Source: Tepidimicrobium xylanilyticum
GTDB lineage: Bacteria > Bacillota > Clostridia > Tissierellales > Tepidimicrobiaceae
Direction: 5' to 3'
NCBI RefSeq assembly: GCF_900106765.1
Contig: NZ_FNNG01000001.1
Span: 313,774 to 377,773, forward strand
Length of the DNA stretch: 64,000 nt
Below are positions 13,181 to 45,433 of this stretch, piece by piece; the stretch's first letter is position 1, and every line of letters begins with the position of its first letter. The notes beneath the pieces are model-generated. The model searched no databases and was not told the origin of the DNA. It saw nothing but the letters and a program-made list of their open reading frames with translations. A program made the position numbers and the translations under genes.

Positions 13181-13214
13181 CAAAAAATAAGACGGAATTC
13201 CGTCTTATTTTTTG
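13181..13214. terminator. Bidirectional terminator, 34-bp perfect palindrome
   Basis: The palindrome is centred on GAATTC (13195-13200), with arms through AATAAGACG and flanking A6 and T6 runs. It ends the ABC operon on the plus strand and the SLH gene on the minus strand. The SLH stop codon at 13205-13207 is inside the right arm. Confidence 0.93.
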
Positions 13215-14827
13215 TTTTCTACTTCAATGATCATTATCTCATCGCTTTCTAAATTCAATTTCACGTAGTCCTCTAATCTCAAATCGTATATTGTTCTTAT
13301 TTCCCCGTCCTTTTTTATTAGGACCTTAGAAGAAACATGATAATCTTTAATCTCTTCCTTATGGTTCAATATGGTTAATTTAGGGGTTCGAGAAATAAAT
13401 ACTTCCTTAATATACCCTTCGTCTGTTCCCGGAACGGATTCAGCTTCTATGGATTCTAATTCTTCATTAGCTATGGATAATACCACCCTATCTCCCCTTC
13501 TCAAATCCTCTAAAGAAACTCCATTAAAATTCCTGTTAATAATTAGACCTTTTCCTGCCAAATACTCATGGACAGATCCATCTTCTCTTTCCACCGATAT
13601 TATATTCTCATCAAGATTAATGTCTTTGATTATACCTTCTACTTTCCCATCTCTGCTTTCACCAATGACGGTTAGAGCTATGTTATCAAAAACTTCAACT
13701 TTTACCCAATCGCCTTCTTTAATGCTAAATAAATAAGCTGTCCTCCCATTTAATCTTATATGGGTGTTGTCTAGGATATTAAAAGCCTTAGTAACGCCTT
13801 CCGCAGAGGTCACAAAAATGGAAGAGGTAAAACTTCCAAAGTTTATTTTACTTATAGTTCCAGTGAAAATGTCTAAATCCTTATCTACAGTTAAGGATTT
13901 TATAATATTTCCCTCGTCTACTGTAACCCTAACGGTCATTCCCTCTTCTATATCATAAATACTTCTTTCGTTACCGCCTATGATTATTTTAGCATCCTTA
14001 GCTAATTGGTAAGAATCCACTCTATGTCCATGGTCTATAATAAGAAATTTGTCAATCTTTCCAGTAATAATTCCAGTTAATCCTTTTTTATCATCTATAA
14101 TTTCCCCTGCATTTACCCTCTCAGGTTCCTTTTCATTAGCCTTTGGGGGAGTTATAGAATTCTCATGTAATTGAGTATAAGATAAATATAGCATTTTAGC
14201 TAATACAGCTCTAGTAACAGGCTGATTGGGATTAAAATTACCAGTTTCATCCCCTTTAGCATCTAATATGCCCTTATCAATTAAGAACTTGATATAGGGC
14301 CTAGTCCTTTCCGGGATAAGGTCTGTATCATTGTATAAAAGTGCATATACCCCCTCTTCCCTTTCCTCCATTCCCAATGCTATGGCAAAGTATTTAGATA
14401 TCTCAGCCTTTGTAGCTTCCCTTAATTCTCCTTTACTAAATAGATTATTATTAACATAGGCTTCCGTTATCAAATCTTCAGATAAAGCAATGGCTATTGC
14501 ATTTTCCCTTTCCTCGGATAGATCAAATCTATTCAATACGTGAGCATATTCATTCCGCTTCTTTTCAATTTCTTCTTCAGTAAAATTAAAAAGTCTTGTT
14601 ATATATACCAGCGCATCGGCAGTATTAACTATCTGATTAGGCCTAAAGGTAGCATCTTCATAGCCATCCATGAGACCTATATCAACCAACTTTTCCACAT
14701 ATTCATAAGCCCAATGGGTTTCAACCATATCAGTAAACATGCTAGCTCCATAAGCTGAAAAAACACTTAAACTGAATAATATTACAACAAACAAAATGGT
14801 TATTCTTCGGTACTTTTGACTTGTCAA
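13205..14827 (-). CDS. SLH-domain cell-surface protein with four repeated beta modules
   Basis: This exported protein of about 540 residues is anchored to the wall through S-layer homology domains. After a signal peptide (hydrophobic RITILFVVILFSLSVFSAYG, residues about 8-27 of the chosen form) come three SLH-like units. The first has HWAYEYVEKLVDIGLMDGY and the third GNFNPNQPVTRAVLAKMLY. The rest contains four repeats of about 75-80 residues with the pattern G.I..I....I....Y.....I..NG....L.DL..GD.V.V. Their function is unknown. The best start is TTG 14827, after GGGGGAGG; the ATG at 14860 has no ribosome site. It sits downstream of pyrG in the same direction with a 70-bp gap. Confidence 0.85.
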   Translation of the reverse strand: MTSQKYRRITILFVVILFSLSVFSAYGASMFTDMVETHWAYEYVEKLVDIGLMDGYEDATFRPNQIVNTADALVYITRLFNFTEEEIEKKRNEYAHVLNRFDLSEERENAIAIALSEDLITEAYVNNNLFSKGELREATKAEISKYFAIALGMEEREEGVYALLYNDTDLIPERTRPYIKFLIDKGILDAKGDETGNFNPNQPVTRAVLAKMLYLSYTQLHENSITPPKANEKEPERVNAGEIIDDKKGLTGIITGKIDKFLIIDHGHRVDSYQLAKDAKIIIGGNERSIYDIEEGMTVRVTVDEGNIIKSLTVDKDLDIFTGTISKINFGSFTSSIFVTSAEGVTKAFNILDNTHIRLNGRTAYLFSIKEGDWVKVEVFDNIALTVIGESRDGKVEGIIKDINLDENIISVEREDGSVHEYLAGKGLIINRNFNGVSLEDLRRGDRVVLSIANEELESIEAESVPGTDEGYIKEVFISRTPKLTILNHKEEIKDYHVSSKVLIKKDGEIRTIYDLRLEDYVKLNLESDEIMIIEVENKK

Positions 14828-14896
14828 AATACCTCCCCCTTTGTCAATATAAAATGCCATCCAGTTATAATATTCTACAAACTTTGTTAATCTCCT

Positions 14897-16504
14897 TTAT
14901 TTATTTTTCTTTTCTTTAGCAGCTCTTATAAAATCTTTGAATAGAGGATGGGATCGAGTGGGCCTAGATTTAAACTCTGGATGGAATTGTACTCCTACAA
15001 ACCAAGGATGGTCCTTTAACTCCACTATTTCAACCAATCTTCCATCAGGTGAAATTCCACTTATTATTAGTCCTTTTTCTTCTAATCTGTCTCTAAAAAG
15101 GTTATTAAATTCATATTTATGCCTATGTCTCTCATATATTATTTCCTCTTGATAGATTTCCTTAACTTTTGAACCTTCAACTAGTTTACATGGGTATAAC
15201 CCCAATCTCATGCTGCCATTAGTAAGTTCTATATCTTTTTGCTCAGGCATTAGGTCTATAACTGGATAAGGGGTATTTGGATCTATTTCAGTCGAATGGG
15301 CATCTTTAAGTCCAATTACATTCCTAGCAAATTCAATTACTGCCAATTGCATTCCCAAACTTAATCCAAAGAAGGGTATATTATTCTCCCTAGCATATTT
15401 AACAGTAGAAATCTTTCCATCTATTCCCCTATCACCAAATCCTCCAGGAACTATTATACCATGAACACCTTCAAGTAGTTCCCTTACATTGCTATCATTT
15501 ACATCTTCTGCCTGTATCCATTTAATGTCTACATCTACATCATTAAATATGCCCGCATGTTTTAAGGATTCTGCTACCGATAAATATGCGTCCTTCAGCT
15601 CCACATATTTACCAACCAAAGCTATGGTTACTTTTTCCTTTAAGGATTTGATCCTATTCACTATATCATTCCACTCGGTTAAATCCAACTCACCACATTT
15701 TAAATTAAGATGGTCAATTACCAATTGAGAAAGTCCTTGTTTTTCTAACATTAATGGTATCTCGTATAGGGTTTCCGCATCTAAATTTTCAATAACTTCT
15801 GAGGGGTCTAAATCGCAGAAGAGGGCAATTTTTCTCTTTAAATCTTGGGATAAAGGTTGTTCCGTTCTACAAATCAAAACATCTGGCTGTATACCTATAC
15901 TCCTTAATTCCTTAACGCTATGTTGGGTTGGTTTGGTCTTTAACTCCCCTGCTGAAGAAAGGTAAGGAACTAAGGTTACATGAATATACATTACATTATC
16001 CTTTCCTACATCATATTTTATCTGCCTAATGGCTTCTAAAAATGGTAAAGACTCAATATCTCCTACAGTACCTCCTATTTCAGTTATTACCACATCTACT
16101 TCCCTATCTCTAGTAACCCTTTTTATCCTATCCTTGATTTCGTTGGTAATATGGGGGATGACCTGTACAGTTTTTCCGTCGTATTCTCCCTTTCTCTCCT
16201 TATTTAAAACAGCCCAATAGATCTTTCCTGTAGTTACATTGCTATATTTATTCAGGTTGATGTCGATGAACCTTTCATAGTGGCCTAAATCCAAATCCGT
16301 TTCTGCTCCATCATCAGTTACAAATACCTCACCATGTTGATAAGGACTCATTTCACCTGGGTCTACATTAATATAAGGATCAAATTTTTGAATGGTTACT
16401 TTAAGACCTCTACTTTTTAACAATTGCCCTAAACTAGCAGCAGTAATTCCTTTACCTAAGGAAGACACTACTCCTCCCGTAATGAATATATACTTAGTAG
16501 GCAT
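14897..16504 (-). CDS. pyrG: CTP synthase with Ser in place of the glutaminase nucleophile Cys
   Basis: This 535-residue enzyme makes CTP from UTP, ATP and an amino donor. The synthetase domain is intact: [13 protein letters not shown]-loop (8-19), [19 protein letters not shown] (41-59) and [11 protein letters not shown] (142-152). The C-terminal GATase class I domain keeps GGFGDRG, the NGSMRLG and ERHRHKYE loops, and the triad residues His508 and Glu510 in VQFHPEF. The nucleophile motif, normally GxCLGMQ, reads FFGLSLGMQ: codon 382 (15361-15359) is AGT, Ser. Without the cysteine the enzyme should not hydrolyse glutamine and would depend on ammonia. ATG 16504 follows GGGGAGG; promoter TTGACA/TAAAAT lies upstream. 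Confidence 0.95.
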
Positions 16505-16566: not shown

Positions 16567-16681
16567 TTACTTGATTAATCTATTTTCTATTATACACCAA
16601 TCTATTGTAATTATAATGTAATATTTATAGCCATCTAAATGGTGTATAATGTATAGTAGAATAACTATGAAGGGAGAGTTA

Positions 16682-19621
16682 ATGATGAAGAGAATATACT
16701 CACTAGTTCTAGCATTAATTATGATATTTTCAAATGTTTCTTTCATATACAGTACAAATGATGAAGAGGTTTTTTATAATCAAGCAGGACAAATATTGAA
16801 AAGCATAGGAGTGTTGAAAGGTTCGGAAACAGGCGATCTAATGCTAGATCAAAATCTTAAAAGAGAGGATATGGTAGTCCTCATAAGCAGATTATATAAT
16901 GAAGAAGATATTGCAAAAAAATATCCAGTAAAGAATACTTTTTCCGATGTTAAAAGTTCTTATTATAAACCCTTTATCTCATGGGCAGTGGACAAGGGCC
17001 TAATCATAGGAATTGGAGAGAATAAATTTGGATTTAATCAACCGATAAAAGTCCAGCAATTTCAAACATTACTTTTAAGGGTACTTCGTCGTGCAGATGA
17101 GGCAAAAGACTATACTCAAGTTCCAGAAATAGCCAAAGAGTTGAAGTTGATGGAAGGAATTTCAGTTGAACCTACTGCTAATCTAAAAAGAGGGGTAATG
17201 GCAGCTATGACCCTCAATGCATTAAGGCAATATCCAAAAGGTTCTTCTAATACATTAGCCCAGGAGCTAAACTTAAACATACCAGATGTATTCGAGGTAA
17301 CGTCTATTCATACGCTCGACAAGAACAATATAAAATTTGAGGGGGTTGCAAAAGGGACTAATGTTTTAAAGCTCCATTTAAAGCCCCTTTCTTCAAGCAT
17401 TACTTCTGGCGAGGAATATTATAATATCCCTTTAGAAGAGGATGGGCGGTTTTCTTATATAGTAGAAAATTTACAACCTGGGAAATATGAATATAAATTT
17501 TTGAGTAATGAATTAAACACTAAAGTCCAAACTTTTACAATTGAAGAACTCCCTTTTGAGCTAAATAATATAAAATCAGATAATTTAAAAGAGATAAAAA
17601 TCAATTTTACCGCACCAGTAGATAAGGCTTCCAGCCTATTTGCAAGTAAATACATTACTAATGCAGGAACTATAAAATCCGTTAGGCTAGCCGAAAACGA
17701 TACAACTGTAATACTTACTCTTAATGAAACTATGAAAAATCAAAGTACATATAGAATCTCCATAAATAAGATTAAATCAGCAAAAGGCGAAGAATTAAGT
17801 ATAAAGGATAGGGAATTTACTGTAATTGATAAAGATATGCCGAAAATATTAGATGTAAGTCAACTGGGTAATAAGGGCATAAAAATCCATATGTCAGAGC
17901 CAATTAAAAATCCCAAATCATCCAATTTTAAAATAGATGGCAAAGCTGTTTCTGCTCAGGTAGAAACAGAAAACGATATAATCATATTAAGATTTTACTC
18001 CTCTCGCTATGCTTTAGAAGAAGGAAGACATATTTTAAGCATATCGGGATTAATTGATTATGCAGGATTTGAGGGATTAGACCAAAATTTTCCCTTTGAT
18101 ATTATAGAGGATGAAAATCCACCTAAAGTAATTAATGCTTATGCCACAATGGATGAAGTAGTGATCCAATTCGATGAAGATATAGACCCCGATTCCATCT
18201 CAAGGAACAGCTTTTATTGGGAATCAGGTTCACGAAAAAAATATCCCAGCAGCGTAAAAGTTTCAGGAGATCAAGTCATTTTAGATTATTCAAAAGACAA
18301 TCTACCTAGTTACGAAATTACGTTGTATTTAGATAATGTGGCGGATTACTCCGATAATAAGTTGAGAAATTGGAAAATAAATGTTAAACCTGAGGTAGAT
18401 GATAGTCAACCTGAAGTGGTTAAATTAACCATATCTCAGGATGGAAAGACAATTACTGTATATTTTAGCAAAAACGTAGATGGAGGAAATAGAAACTATT
18501 ATAATATCAAAGATGAAAAAGGCAATAGAGTATTTGTTAGCAGCGTAGAGGGATCTGGTAGAGAATATAAGATACATTTGACTAATCACTTGCCCATAGG
18601 GTATAGTACCATTTCTATGGATGGAATAAGGGATACCACTCCTTTAAGAAATCCCATAGTGCCTTTTGAAGAAACTATATATATAGAAGATGTGGAAGCC
18701 CCTAAAATTGAAAGCTATTCAGCAAAGGGAAATGAGATAATAATCATATTCAACAAGGATATGGATTTATCCACTGTAGAAAATAGAGAAAATTATTTAA
18801 TCCGATTTGATAATGAATATGCTTATCTTCCTGAAGAAACTGAATTTATGTCTATAAATGATGGTAGAGTATATAAAATCATATTACCCGAAAGAATTGA
18901 TGGTAAAAGGATAAACATAGGCAGAGACAAAAATATCACCGAATTGGAAATTAGAAGTTTAAAATCTAGCAGTGGAATATTAATGGAACCAACAAGGCTC
19001 AAATTCGACGGACAAAATCAAGGCCAAGCTATCGTTCAAGAAGCTAAGCTTATTGAACCAGATAAAATACTAGTAATATTTGATCAACCAATCTTTTATG
19101 CATCTGAAAGGGATTTTTCAATTTCTGGACACAGTATTTATGAAGTTATATGTGATGGCACTAAAGAGGTTTCTATAATCTTACTGGATAGATCTCAAAC
19201 TACTATTGATGGAAAACTATCTATTAGGGATAGAAATTCAATAGAAACCATTTTAGGAACCAATGCCAAAGCCACTTCCATAGAAGTCAAGGATAAGGTA
19301 AAGCCCCTTATTAATTCAAGAAGGGATTGGCTCGACACTAGCGGCAATACAATCTACTTGCCCTTTACAGAAAAATTAGATAAGGAAATAGAAAAACTAT
19401 TTAGAAACGATTTGATAATAGAGTCCATAGGCGAAGGAATACTTGATCAATCCGAGTATGAAACTTCATTAGACTCTGACGGAAAAACCATAAGGATTAA
19501 AATAAACGGAAAATTCAACTCTGATGGATATATTATAAGATTGGCAAAGGAACCAAAATATATAATGGATACTAGTGGCAACATAGTTGAATACGATAGA
19601 TATGAATACTATACTAGATAA
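16682..19621 (+). CDS. Large SLH-anchored surface protein with Ig-like (SbsA/Big_5-type) repeats
   Basis: This exported protein has about 979 residues. A signal peptide (MMKRIYSLVLALIMIFSNVS) is followed by SLH-like units between about residues 35 and 190 (NTFSDVKSSYYKPFISWAV and NKFGFNQPIKVQQFQTLLL mark one unit). The remainder is a chain of about seven beta-sandwich modules. Recurrent motifs are of the SbsA/Big_5 kind: I.I.F...MD.STV.N..NY, VIIQFDEDIDPDSI, ITVYFSKNVD, IIIFNKDMDLSTV. The start ATG 16682 follows AAGGGAG; an earlier ATG at 16649 lies inside the TATAAT box and is unlikely. A structural or adhesive S-layer role is probable. Confidence 0.87.
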   Translation: MMKRIYSLVLALIMIFSNVSFIYSTNDEEVFYNQAGQILKSIGVLKGSETGDLMLDQNLKREDMVVLISRLYNEEDIAKKYPVKNTFSDVKSSYYKPFISWAVDKGLIIGIGENKFGFNQPIKVQQFQTLLLRVLRRADEAKDYTQVPEIAKELKLMEGISVEPTANLKRGVMAAMTLNALRQYPKGSSNTLAQELNLNIPDVFEVTSIHTLDKNNIKFEGVAKGTNVLKLHLKPLSSSITSGEEYYNIPLEEDGRFSYIVENLQPGKYEYKFLSNELNTKVQTFTIEELPFELNNIKSDNLKEIKINFTAPVDKASSLFASKYITNAGTIKSVRLAENDTTVILTLNETMKNQSTYRISINKIKSAKGEELSIKDREFTVIDKDMPKILDVSQLGNKGIKIHMSEPIKNPKSSNFKIDGKAVSAQVETENDIIILRFYSSRYALEEGRHILSISGLIDYAGFEGLDQNFPFDIIEDENPPKVINAYATMDEVVIQFDEDIDPDSISRNSFYWESGSRKKYPSSVKVSGDQVILDYSKDNLPSYEITLYLDNVADYSDNKLRNWKINVKPEVDDSQPEVVKLTISQDGKTITVYFSKNVDGGNRNYYNIKDEKGNRVFVSSVEGSGREYKIHLTNHLPIGYSTISMDGIRDTTPLRNPIVPFEETIYIEDVEAPKIESYSAKGNEIIIIFNKDMDLSTVENRENYLIRFDNEYAYLPEETEFMSINDGRVYKIILPERIDGKRINIGRDKNITELEIRSLKSSSGILMEPTRLKFDGQNQGQAIVQEAKLIEPDKILVIFDQPIFYASERDFSISGHSIYEVICDGTKEVSIILLDRSQTTIDGKLSIRDRNSIETILGTNAKATSIEVKDKVKPLINSRRDWLDTSGNTIYLPFTEKLDKEIEKLFRNDLIIESIGEGILDQSEYETSLDSDGKTIRIKINGKFNSDGYIIRLAKEPKYIMDTSGNIVEYDRYEYYTR

Positions 19622-43867: not shown

Positions 43868-45433
43868 ATGGATATTAATAATCAAAACAACATTCAAGAC
43901 TTGCCAAAATCCTATTGGCTTGCCTCTACCCCTACCACTGAATATCCTCCTTTGCAAGAGGATATAGAGGTAGATATAGCCATTATAGGCGGTGGATTAG
44001 CAGGTATATCCTGTGCCTATCTTTTGGAAAAGGAAAAGTTTAAAATTGCAATTTTAGAATCCGATAGGATTTGCCAAGGGACTACAGCCCATACTACAGC
44101 TAAGATCACATCCCAACATGGACTAATATACAATAAAATCAAAACCAAAATGGGTATAGAATTAGCTCGCCAATATGCTGAAATCAACGAAAGAGCAATA
44201 AATAAAATTAAAGGCATTATTGAAGAAAACAATATTCAGTGCGATTTTATATCCCAACCTGCTTTTGTTTTCACGCAGGATGAAAAATATGTAAAGAAGA
44301 TTGAAGATGAGGTAAAAACTGTATCGGAATTGGGTATTAAAGCTTCTTTCATCGATAAAATACCCTTTCCCATACCCATTAAAGCTGCTATACGCTTTGA
44401 TGACCAAGCTCAATTCCATCCAAGGAAATATGTATTAGCCTTAACTGAAATTCTTCACAATAAAGGAGTCAGCATTTATGAAAAAACTAGAGCAGTTAAT
44501 ATAGAAGAAAATGATAAATATATAATTACTACTGAAAAAGGAAATAGAGTAAAGGCAAAAAGGGTTATAATTGCATCCCAATATCCCTTTTATAATAAGC
44601 GAGGTATGTACTTTGCTAGGCTTTTTCCCATTAGATCCTATATAGTAGGAATTAAAGCTAAGGAAGAGTATCCTTGGGGAATGTATATCAATGCAGAGAC
44701 TCCCACCCGTTCCCTTCGCTGTCAGAATACGAAAGATGGTGAACTAATTTTAGTAGTTGGATCTAATCATACTACAGGTCAAGAAGAAAATACGGATAAG
44801 CACTATGATGAATTAATAGATTTTGCCAATAATACGTTCACAGTAGAGGATATTCCTTACAAATGGTCTACTCAAGACTATATAACTTTAGATGGAATGC
44901 CTTATATTGGACATTTTACAGCAGATACCCCTAATATGTATGTTGCTACCGGATTTCAACAATGGGGTATGACCAATAGCGTGGCTTCTGCAATGATTAT
45001 TAGAGATTTAATAGTAGAAGGAAAAAGCAAATGGCAAGAAGTTTATAATCCATCTCGGAAAAATATTATTGCATCAGCCAAAAACTTTCTGGTAGAAAAC
45101 TTAAATGTAGCAGCCTATTTATTAAGTGGGAAACTATCCCCTTTAACTGATGATATAGATATTAAACCCGGGGAAGGCAAGGTTTTAAAATTAGAGGGTG
45201 AAAGGATTGGAGCTTATAAAACTGAAGAGGGAACCCTTCACTTAGTAAATACTACCTGTCCACACATGGGCTGTGAACTAAACTGGAACTCTGCAGAAAA
45301 ATCTTGGGATTGTCCCTGCCACGGTTCAAGATTTACCTATGAAGGAGAAATAATTGAAGGTCCTGCAGTTAAACCATTAAGGGCAGGCAATAATGTAAAC
45401 ACCCTAGAAAAGTTGATAAAGGACGATTTTTAA
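43868..45433 (+). CDS. FAD-dependent oxidoreductase with C-terminal Rieske domain
   Basis: This 521-residue fusion has an N-terminal DAO-type FAD domain (Rossmann IAIIGGGLAGISCAYLLE, 37-54; CQGTTAHTTAKITSQHG, about 69-85). Its C-terminal Rieske [2Fe-2S] domain (about 430-515) has the ligand motif CPHMGC ... CPCHGS, that is CxH then CxxH. Proteins of this arrangement (YhfW type) are found in Bacilli and Clostridia; the substrate is not known, but an amine or amino acid is expected for the DAO domain. RBS TTGGAGG lies 7 bases before ATG 43868. It is convergent with the VOC dioxygenase gene. Confidence 0.9.
   Translation: MDINNQNNIQDLPKSYWLASTPTTEYPPLQEDIEVDIAIIGGGLAGISCAYLLEKEKFKIAILESDRICQGTTAHTTAKITSQHGLIYNKIKTKMGIELARQYAEINERAINKIKGIIEENNIQCDFISQPAFVFTQDEKYVKKIEDEVKTVSELGIKASFIDKIPFPIPIKAAIRFDDQAQFHPRKYVLALTEILHNKGVSIYEKTRAVNIEENDKYIITTEKGNRVKAKRVIIASQYPFYNKRGMYFARLFPIRSYIVGIKAKEEYPWGMYINAETPTRSLRCQNTKDGELILVVGSNHTTGQEENTDKHYDELIDFANNTFTVEDIPYKWSTQDYITLDGMPYIGHFTADTPNMYVATGFQQWGMTNSVASAMIIRDLIVEGKSKWQEVYNPSRKNIIASAKNFLVENLNVAAYLLSGKLSPLTDDIDIKPGEGKVLKLEGERIGAYKTEEGTLHLVNTTCPHMGCELNWNSAEKSWDCPCHGSRFTYEGEIIEGPAVKPLRAGNNVNTLEKLIKDDF

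Follow-up and report, generated by a model that had tools for sequence, protein, structure and literature searches.

A CTP synthase with serine at the glutaminase nucleophile position in Tepidimicrobium xylanilyticum, probably dependent on free ammonia

Can a CTP synthase without the cysteine of its glutaminase domain still make CTP, and from which source of nitrogen? The accepted nitrogen donor for both CTP and GMP is glutamine, not free ammonia. The question is raised by pyrG in a 64,000-nucleotide stretch of the Tepidimicrobium xylanilyticum genome (contig NZ_FNNG01000001.1, positions 313,774 to 377,773; hereafter, the window), where a serine codon, AGT, occupies the place of the nucleophilic cysteine. 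We argue below that the encoded protein is probably a functional CTP synthase that does not hydrolyse glutamine and uses free ammonia for the amination of 4-phospho-UTP. The genome carrying the window is denoted G000 and a relative from the same genus G001; other G numbers stand for the genomes compared with them. The G000 assembly comprises 3.0 Mb in 38 contigs, with completeness of 100 and contamination of 3.56%.

The product of the window pyrG matches the profile TIGR00337, described as 'glutamine hydrolyzing', over its whole length (861.3 bits; cut-off 462.75) as well as NF003792 (890.6 bits; cut-off 308), and its synthase domain is recognised by PF06418 with an E-value of 1.2e-134, the P-loop region (residues 10–19) being present. 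The match to NF004836 (PRK06186, CTP synthase C-terminal region-related (seleno)protein) was confined to the C-terminal part and, at 146.9 bits, stayed below the cut-off of 260. Ser382 lies in the motif FGLSLGMQ, at the site of the glutaminase nucleophile, so that Ser382, His508 and Glu510 stand where a Cys-His-Glu triad is expected; the PGG sequence (residues 353–355) and Gln386 are retained. The nucleophile elbow is also preserved in the AlphaFold model of the glutaminase domain (confidence score pLDDT mostly above 80, low at ∼421–431), which places Ser382 between a strand (378–381) and a helix (383–397). The initial annotation of this stretch had pointed out the substitution and the chance that a second pyrG might exist elsewhere. 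The former is borne out by the codon itself and by the relatives described below. As to the latter, a profile search of the G000 contigs revealed a single CTP synthase N-terminal domain, and thus no second pyrG that could serve as a rescue was found. Judged from these matches, the protein is PyrG by descent, yet the designation 'glutamine hydrolyzing' is not supported for it.

The first comparison set consisted of 109 relatives (29 genomes and 80 further sequence records). The nearest of these, G001, has a PyrG 91% identical to that of the window, and the protein of record L032 is 78% identical. Position 382 is cysteine in all 109 (codon TGC in 57, including G001, and TGT in 52). Among the 140 alignment columns invariant in these relatives the window PyrG departs at two, C382S and T51E. 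Threonine codons are found at position 51 in all 109 relatives, and the glutamate codon of G000 is at least two base changes away from any of them. The window protein shares Pro54, His57 and Val60 with the Escherichia coli enzyme, so that the N-terminal numbering of the two agrees, and Thr51 of the latter is described as one of the GTP-site residues, beside Met52 and the gate of the ammonia tunnel (PMC9138612); in the fly enzyme residues 50–58 are assigned to part of this tunnel (PMC8325340). The AlphaFold model is of low confidence at residues 46–59 and 428–431 and was not used for placing Glu51. The initial statement that both domains are otherwise intact therefore holds for His508 and Glu510, but not for the invariant position 51 or for the GTP-activation motif, which begins with NGS, as it does in the Cys-bearing G001. 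Glu107 and Asp109 of the L4 loop also occur in G001 and other relatives with cysteine.

As a control we took GuaB of G000, which conforms to its relatives at every one of the 202 columns that are invariant among 39 of them (a genome set partly different from that used for PyrG), making a general base error less likely. Relative to G001, the synthase domain has a ratio of non-synonymous to synonymous substitution (dN/dS) of 0.027 and the glutaminase domain one of 0.034, at a synonymous distance of ∼1.5, which is near saturation. Both domains are under purifying selection and the gene is not decaying. The end branch of G000 in the PyrG tree is 0.079 (0.069 for G001), and the protein has 16 private residues (10 in G001). 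Replacement of the nucleophile beside a conserved synthase domain is the pattern known from carbamoyl-phosphate synthetase I (CPS1). The coordinates of all features are collected in Table 1.

Table 1. Features of the pyrG locus, its surroundings and the other glutaminase genes of G000. Positions refer to the window unless a contig or locus is named.
Feature	Position	Strand	Basis
pyrG, CTP synthase, 535 residues, single copy found in G000	14897..16504	-	open reading frame translation, profile matches
Synthase (amidoligase) domain, residues 1–266	15707..16504	-	domain matches; dN/dS 0.027 against G001
Glutamine amidotransferase domain, residues 292–530	14915..15631	-	domain match; dN/dS 0.034 against G001
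Codon 51, GAA (Glu), replacing Thr invariant in 109 relatives	16352..16354	-	alignment
Ammonia-tunnel constriction residues Pro54, His57, Val60 (within residues 54–60), present	16325..16345	-	sequence; PMC9138612
L4 loop K-G-E-Y-D-G, residues 105–110 (E. coli Asp107/Leu109 coupling region)	16175..16192	-	alignment; PMC9138612
Oxyanion-region glycines 354–355, unchanged	15440..15445	-	alignment
Codon 382, AGT (Ser), replacing Cys, the glutaminase nucleophile (E. coli Cys379)	15359..15361	-	translation, alignment
GTP-activation motif NGSMRLG, residues 429–435	15200..15220	-	compared with GG(T/S)(M/L)RLG of PMC9138612
His508 of the triad, present	14981..14983	-	alignment
Glu510 of the triad, present	14975..14977	-	alignment
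GuaA, nucleophile Cys to Gly	G000:C1:92953-94467, locus L161, outside the window	-	SIGYGAD against GICYG in Cys-bearing relatives
PurF	G000:C1 near 51114, locus L251:739-2097	-	PF13522
S-layer homology domain gene, one flank of pyrG	13205-14860	-	
Large gene with bacterial Ig-like domains, other flank of pyrG	16649-19621	+	
Glycine-oxidase-like flavoprotein	43868-45433	+	matches below curated cut-offs

In order to find out whether the substitution is confined to G000, we surveyed 218 genomes of the order Tissierellales (completeness of at least 85%). A pyrG gene was found in 165 of them at E ≤ 1e-60, and its nucleophile could be read in 158 (the unread genes being those of G522, G524, G525, G526, G528, G576 and G595). 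Cysteine is present in 145 and missing from 13, where it is replaced by serine (G000, G509, G518, G607, G608 and G611), alanine (G597, G598 and G599), glycine (G600, G590 and G502) or glutamine (G500). G611, with serine, has sister genomes that keep cysteine (G610, G612 and G613). According to the initial annotation, cysteine in all relatives would point to a sequencing error or a private mutation; this is what the 109 close relatives have, but the expectation fails in the order as a whole. A search for the AGY serine-codon version of the motif over 398 genomes of the phylum yielded five matches, namely pyrG of G000, G140, G177 and G406 and one in G269, which was rejected as a chance match: G269 gave no pyrG match and the open reading frames there resemble purine-pathway genes. 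G140, G177 and G406 lie outside the order, as does G751 (Gly), at least one further gene of this kind among the listed matches of a survey of the class (236 of 393 genomes matched) that may include other glutaminase genes and was used only for G751, which was confirmed as pyrG. The nucleophile pattern can also match other glutaminases, such as HisH. The places of the matches were therefore checked: 115 fell within pyrG, three second places outside it were dropped, and eight further genomes fetched for this purpose all have pyrG with cysteine.

Serine is the commonest replacement, found in nine of the 17 non-Cys genes. A quick tree was calculated from 102 PyrG proteins with the trait columns excluded; on it, the state of the nucleophile changes at least seven times, five of these being forced by well-supported branches; the tree contains long branches (those of G140 and G406 were flagged), so that the exact count is unsure. 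Some related bacteria have lost the cysteine independently, which suggests that they, too, use free ammonia for making CTP.

Other well-conserved columns differ together with the nucleophile; those that do so most strongly are given here from a comparison of the 17 non-Cys genes with 105 genes that have cysteine. In the GTP motif, column 431 lacks threonine in 14 of the 17 (two of which have the serine allowed by the motif) versus 8 of the 105, and column 429 differs in the same proportions. Column 51 differs in 10/17 versus 4/104 genes, and column 354 of the oxyanion region in 6/17 versus 0/105; in the thinned tree set at least one of the oxyanion glycines 354–355 is changed in 7/17 non-Cys and 1/85 Cys genes. 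Further differences were found at columns 462 (6/17 versus 0/105), 466 (11/17 versus 6/105), 471 (9/17 versus 11/105) and 506 (9/17 versus 0/104). The GTP motif and Thr51 are assigned to the GTP site and the mouth of the tunnel (PMC9138612). For 466, 471 and 506 no special role is recognised, and part of the co-erosion may therefore reflect general relaxation of the glutaminase domain. Some non-Cys genes have also lost other triad residues: His is replaced by Arg in G611 and by Gln in G406 and G751, and Glu by Gln in G177. Asn429 and Ser431 are common to G000 and the Cys-bearing G001, whereas Glu51 and Ser382 occur only in G000; erosion of the GTP motif thus appears to have preceded the loss of cysteine in this lineage. 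Position 51 is changed despite cysteine in G596 (Met51) and in G610, G612 and G613 (Ser51).

The class I glutaminase family PF00117 is represented in G000 only by PyrG and GuaA, and the GuaA nucleophile is replaced as well (Table 1). A search of 79 genomes matched guaA in 73 and allowed the nucleophile to be read in 68: cysteine is kept in 26, two are mixed, one (G501) is unclear and 39 have lost it. The losses consist of 12 whole-length genes with the cysteine replaced (11 from the family of G000, and G609), 17 genes for the ATPPase domain only (that of G004 being cut by a contig end), eight whose glutaminase domain is an eroded remnant, and the genes of G177 (Gly) and G511 (Ala). In the family of G000, GuaA was found in 14 of the 17 genomes searched, and all 14 lack the glutaminase nucleophile or domain. 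The same is true of 12 of the 13 in-order genomes with non-Cys PyrG, no GuaA being found in the remaining one (G502), and of 14 of the 17 non-Cys genomes overall, which further include G406 (mixed), G502 and G751 (outside the GuaA search); GuaA of G599 was judged from its search row alone. Many genomes with Cys-bearing PyrG are also without a GuaA glutaminase. On these sequences, loss of the PyrG nucleophile is nested within loss of that of GuaA, G406 apart.

Several guaA genes deserve separate mention. G406 (L247) and G591 (L262) each have two copies near one another, of which one has the cysteine motif and the other is degenerate, which looks like a transitional state, and in G523 the cysteine is kept in a gene split between frames. 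The guaA genes coding for the ATPPase domain alone (L231–L239 and L248–L250, 312–331 residues) are mostly located beside guaB; L249 is cut by a contig end. Searches with a GuaA reference in the stretches around these genes, remote genes not included, revealed no second glutaminase piece. The guaA genes of G611–G613 are eroded intermediates of 408 residues. PF13522 matched only PurF in G000, which keeps its cysteine; compared with a single reference, Bacillus subtilis PurF, it reads YDG for HNG, with Asp for the Asn, and RTGS for RYAT. PurF is possibly a third fading glutaminase. Since neither PF00117 nor PF13522 recognised any other gene of G000, CarA and GlmS may be absent from it, although PF13537, PF00310 and PF13507 were not searched.

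No glutamine synthetase was found in G000 with PF00120, which matched all 14 control genomes. In the order, 135 of the 218 genomes have a match, counting as present the weak ones in long frames (∼1e-18 to 1e-40), which we take to be type III glutamine synthetases; genomes outside these 135 were scored as lacking the enzyme. All 13 in-order non-Cys genomes were without a match, as were 42 of the 145 Cys genomes (Fisher p 4e-7, kinship ignored), and the enzyme is present in 3 of the 17 genomes searched from the family of G000. A rough estimate from branch lengths places 5/5 parsimony events on branches without glutamine synthetase, which make up 0.435 of the tree (∼0.016); the reconstruction allows regain of cysteine and is given little weight. 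The enzyme was not found in the Cys-bearing G001 either, and its loss therefore probably predates the PyrG change in G000.

The ammonia-only CTP synthase proposed by analogy with CPS1 in the initial annotation is thus supported in part, namely by the repeated loss of cysteine in the order, the co-erosion of the GTP and oxyanion sites, the failure to find glutamine synthetase and the loss of the GuaA nucleophile. A Cys379 mutant of the E. coli CTP synthase reportedly retains the ammonia reaction. CTP synthase is described as able to use external ammonia (PMC9138612). In the window PyrG, the synthase domain would phosphorylate UTP with ATP as usual, and ammonia would be drawn from the solvent, most likely via the GTP-side opening of the tunnel, rather than from glutamine, because efficient formation of the glutamyl thioester is not expected of Ser382. 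As there would be no nascent ammonia to retain, the GTP 'bung' would no longer be needed, and this would account for the relaxation of the GTP site. As for the order of events, we infer that the GuaA glutaminase was lost early and the PyrG nucleophile later, on the branch of G000 itself, along with T51E in the loop at the GTP site and tunnel. These patterns appear to be best explained if the PyrG change came late in a broader replacement of glutamine by ammonia. In a more general form, which we regard as plausible though somewhat short of probable, the lineage would be retiring glutamine as the nitrogen donor of nucleotides, the GuaA glutaminase going first, glutamine synthetase in many lineages and PyrG later and repeatedly, while the GTP site, chiefly position 51, turns into an open ammonia port; PurF may follow.

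Several observations weigh against an ammonia-dependent enzyme or against its proposed setting. G001 keeps cysteine though no glutamine synthetase was found in it (the genome being 93% complete), and G140, G177 and G406, the three outside-order Ser genomes tested, all have glutamine synthetase, which rules out a strict rule that cysteine is missing only where this enzyme is missing. The association within the order owes its low p-value to a test blind to kinship; independent-pair tests on the tree (five pairs, underpowered) were not significant for glutamine synthetase, Thr51, the GTP motif or the oxyanion site. Thr51 is kept in 7/17 non-Cys genes, and its change is therefore not obligatory. 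Finally, some glutaminase activity of Ser382 is possible, since the protein still has His508, Glu510, the oxyanion glycines and Gln386, and the domain is under purifying selection. Taken further, Ser382 would be the nucleophile of a Ser-His-Glu triad with slow or altered glutaminase, or another amidase, activity, to which its place in the predicted elbow and the frequency of serine among the replacements would also be suited. We consider this unlikely: relatives have alanine, glycine or glutamine at the site, and the serine genes of G611, G406 and G177 are also without the triad His or Glu, so that the trend is one of loss and not of exchange; moreover, human CPS1, with serine at the equivalent place, is described as unable to use glutamine (PMC4655335).

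An error of assembly or sequencing, or a damaged allele private to the strain and of no lasting meaning, would agree with cysteine in G001 and every other close relative, with the single assembly from a single strain and with its contamination. However, T51E affects a second invariant site, in a functionally linked loop, and requires at least two base changes; together with the clean GuaB control this makes a sequencing error look unlikely. Nine of the 16 other non-Cys genes likewise differ at position 51 (Ser51 of G611 being common to its Cys-bearing sisters), and all 14 family genomes in which GuaA was found, of 17 searched, have lost its nucleophile or glutaminase domain, so that we regard this explanation as very unlikely. 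Least probable of the three alternatives is that CTP is derived mainly from cytidine salvage while PyrG decays under relaxed selection. Some relatives do seem to lack pyrG: no match at E 1e-60 was obtained in 53 of the 218 order genomes, the near-complete G009 and G024 have none even at E 0.001, and none of the 29 genomes of genus g302 (G452–G480) is among the 165 with pyrG; near-complete genomes of this kind are perhaps cytidine auxotrophs. In G000, the dN/dS of ∼0.03 in both domains, an end branch similar to that of G001 and only two changed invariant sites argue against decay. An ammonia-dependent CTP synthase thus remains the reading that we prefer.

The neighbours of the window pyrG are an S-layer homology domain gene on one side and, on the other, a large gene with bacterial Ig-like domains. 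Elsewhere in the window, genes resemble those for an oligopeptide transporter, TldD/PmbA proteases and aldehyde ferredoxin oxidoreductase (best NCBIfam models, below curated cut-offs), and Pfam identifies a Cys/Met-type lyase; such neighbours would be compatible with an ammonia-rich amino-acid fermenter. At its C-terminus the glycine-oxidase-like flavoprotein also matches a Rieske-type iron-sulphur subunit, again below the curated cut-offs.

If the interpretation is correct, these genes would illustrate how bacteria living amid plentiful ammonia might do without glutamine. The pairs G611/G612 and G000/G001 offer ready-made material for asking what the GTP site and the tunnel gate do without ammonia channelling, and the repeated losses suggest that enzymes of this kind would be insensitive to glutamine-site inhibitors. 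In the open-access literature searched we found no report of a natural CTP synthase without glutaminase activity. In a survey of 2012, fusion with a glutaminase is given as 100% for both PyrG (800 genomes) and GuaA (730 genomes), domains being counted there and not catalytic residues (PMC3376133, Table 1).

Like the PyrG proteins of E. coli and Lactococcus, the window protein is whole-length, has both domains and retains Pro54, His57 and Val60 of the tunnel; unlike them, it lacks the cysteine of the triad, has Glu for Thr51 at the GTP site and carries the NGS form of the GTP motif. The phenotype predicted for it is that described for the E. coli G352P variant, which shows no detectable glutamine-dependent CTP synthesis and almost full NH4Cl-dependent activity (PMC9138612), although that variant is laboratory-made and alters the oxyanion/lid region rather than the nucleophile. 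The ATPPase-only GuaA of the relatives resembles the ATPPase subunit of the two-subunit archaeal GMP synthetase, which is reported to use external ammonia in vitro (PMC10526850); archaea, however, have a separate glutaminase subunit. Single-domain NadE, which also catalyses an ATP-dependent amidation, is reported to draw on free ammonia in vivo and proposed to be ancestrally free of a glutaminase (PMC3376133), whereas the window PyrG would have possessed one and lost it. In vertebrate CPS1, a class I amidotransferase-like domain has likewise exchanged the nucleophilic cysteine for serine, and the human enzyme, with Ser294, is described as taking ammonia from its surroundings (PMC4655335). CPS1 is an animal enzyme with a different synthetase and is activated by N-acetylglutamate; the enzyme considered here is a CTP synthase, in which bacteria have lost the cysteine repeatedly and put various residues in its place. 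By descent the window protein is thus a PyrG, in its presumed mode of working it resembles CPS1, and CTP synthase would join CPS1 and NadE as a natural user of ammonia.
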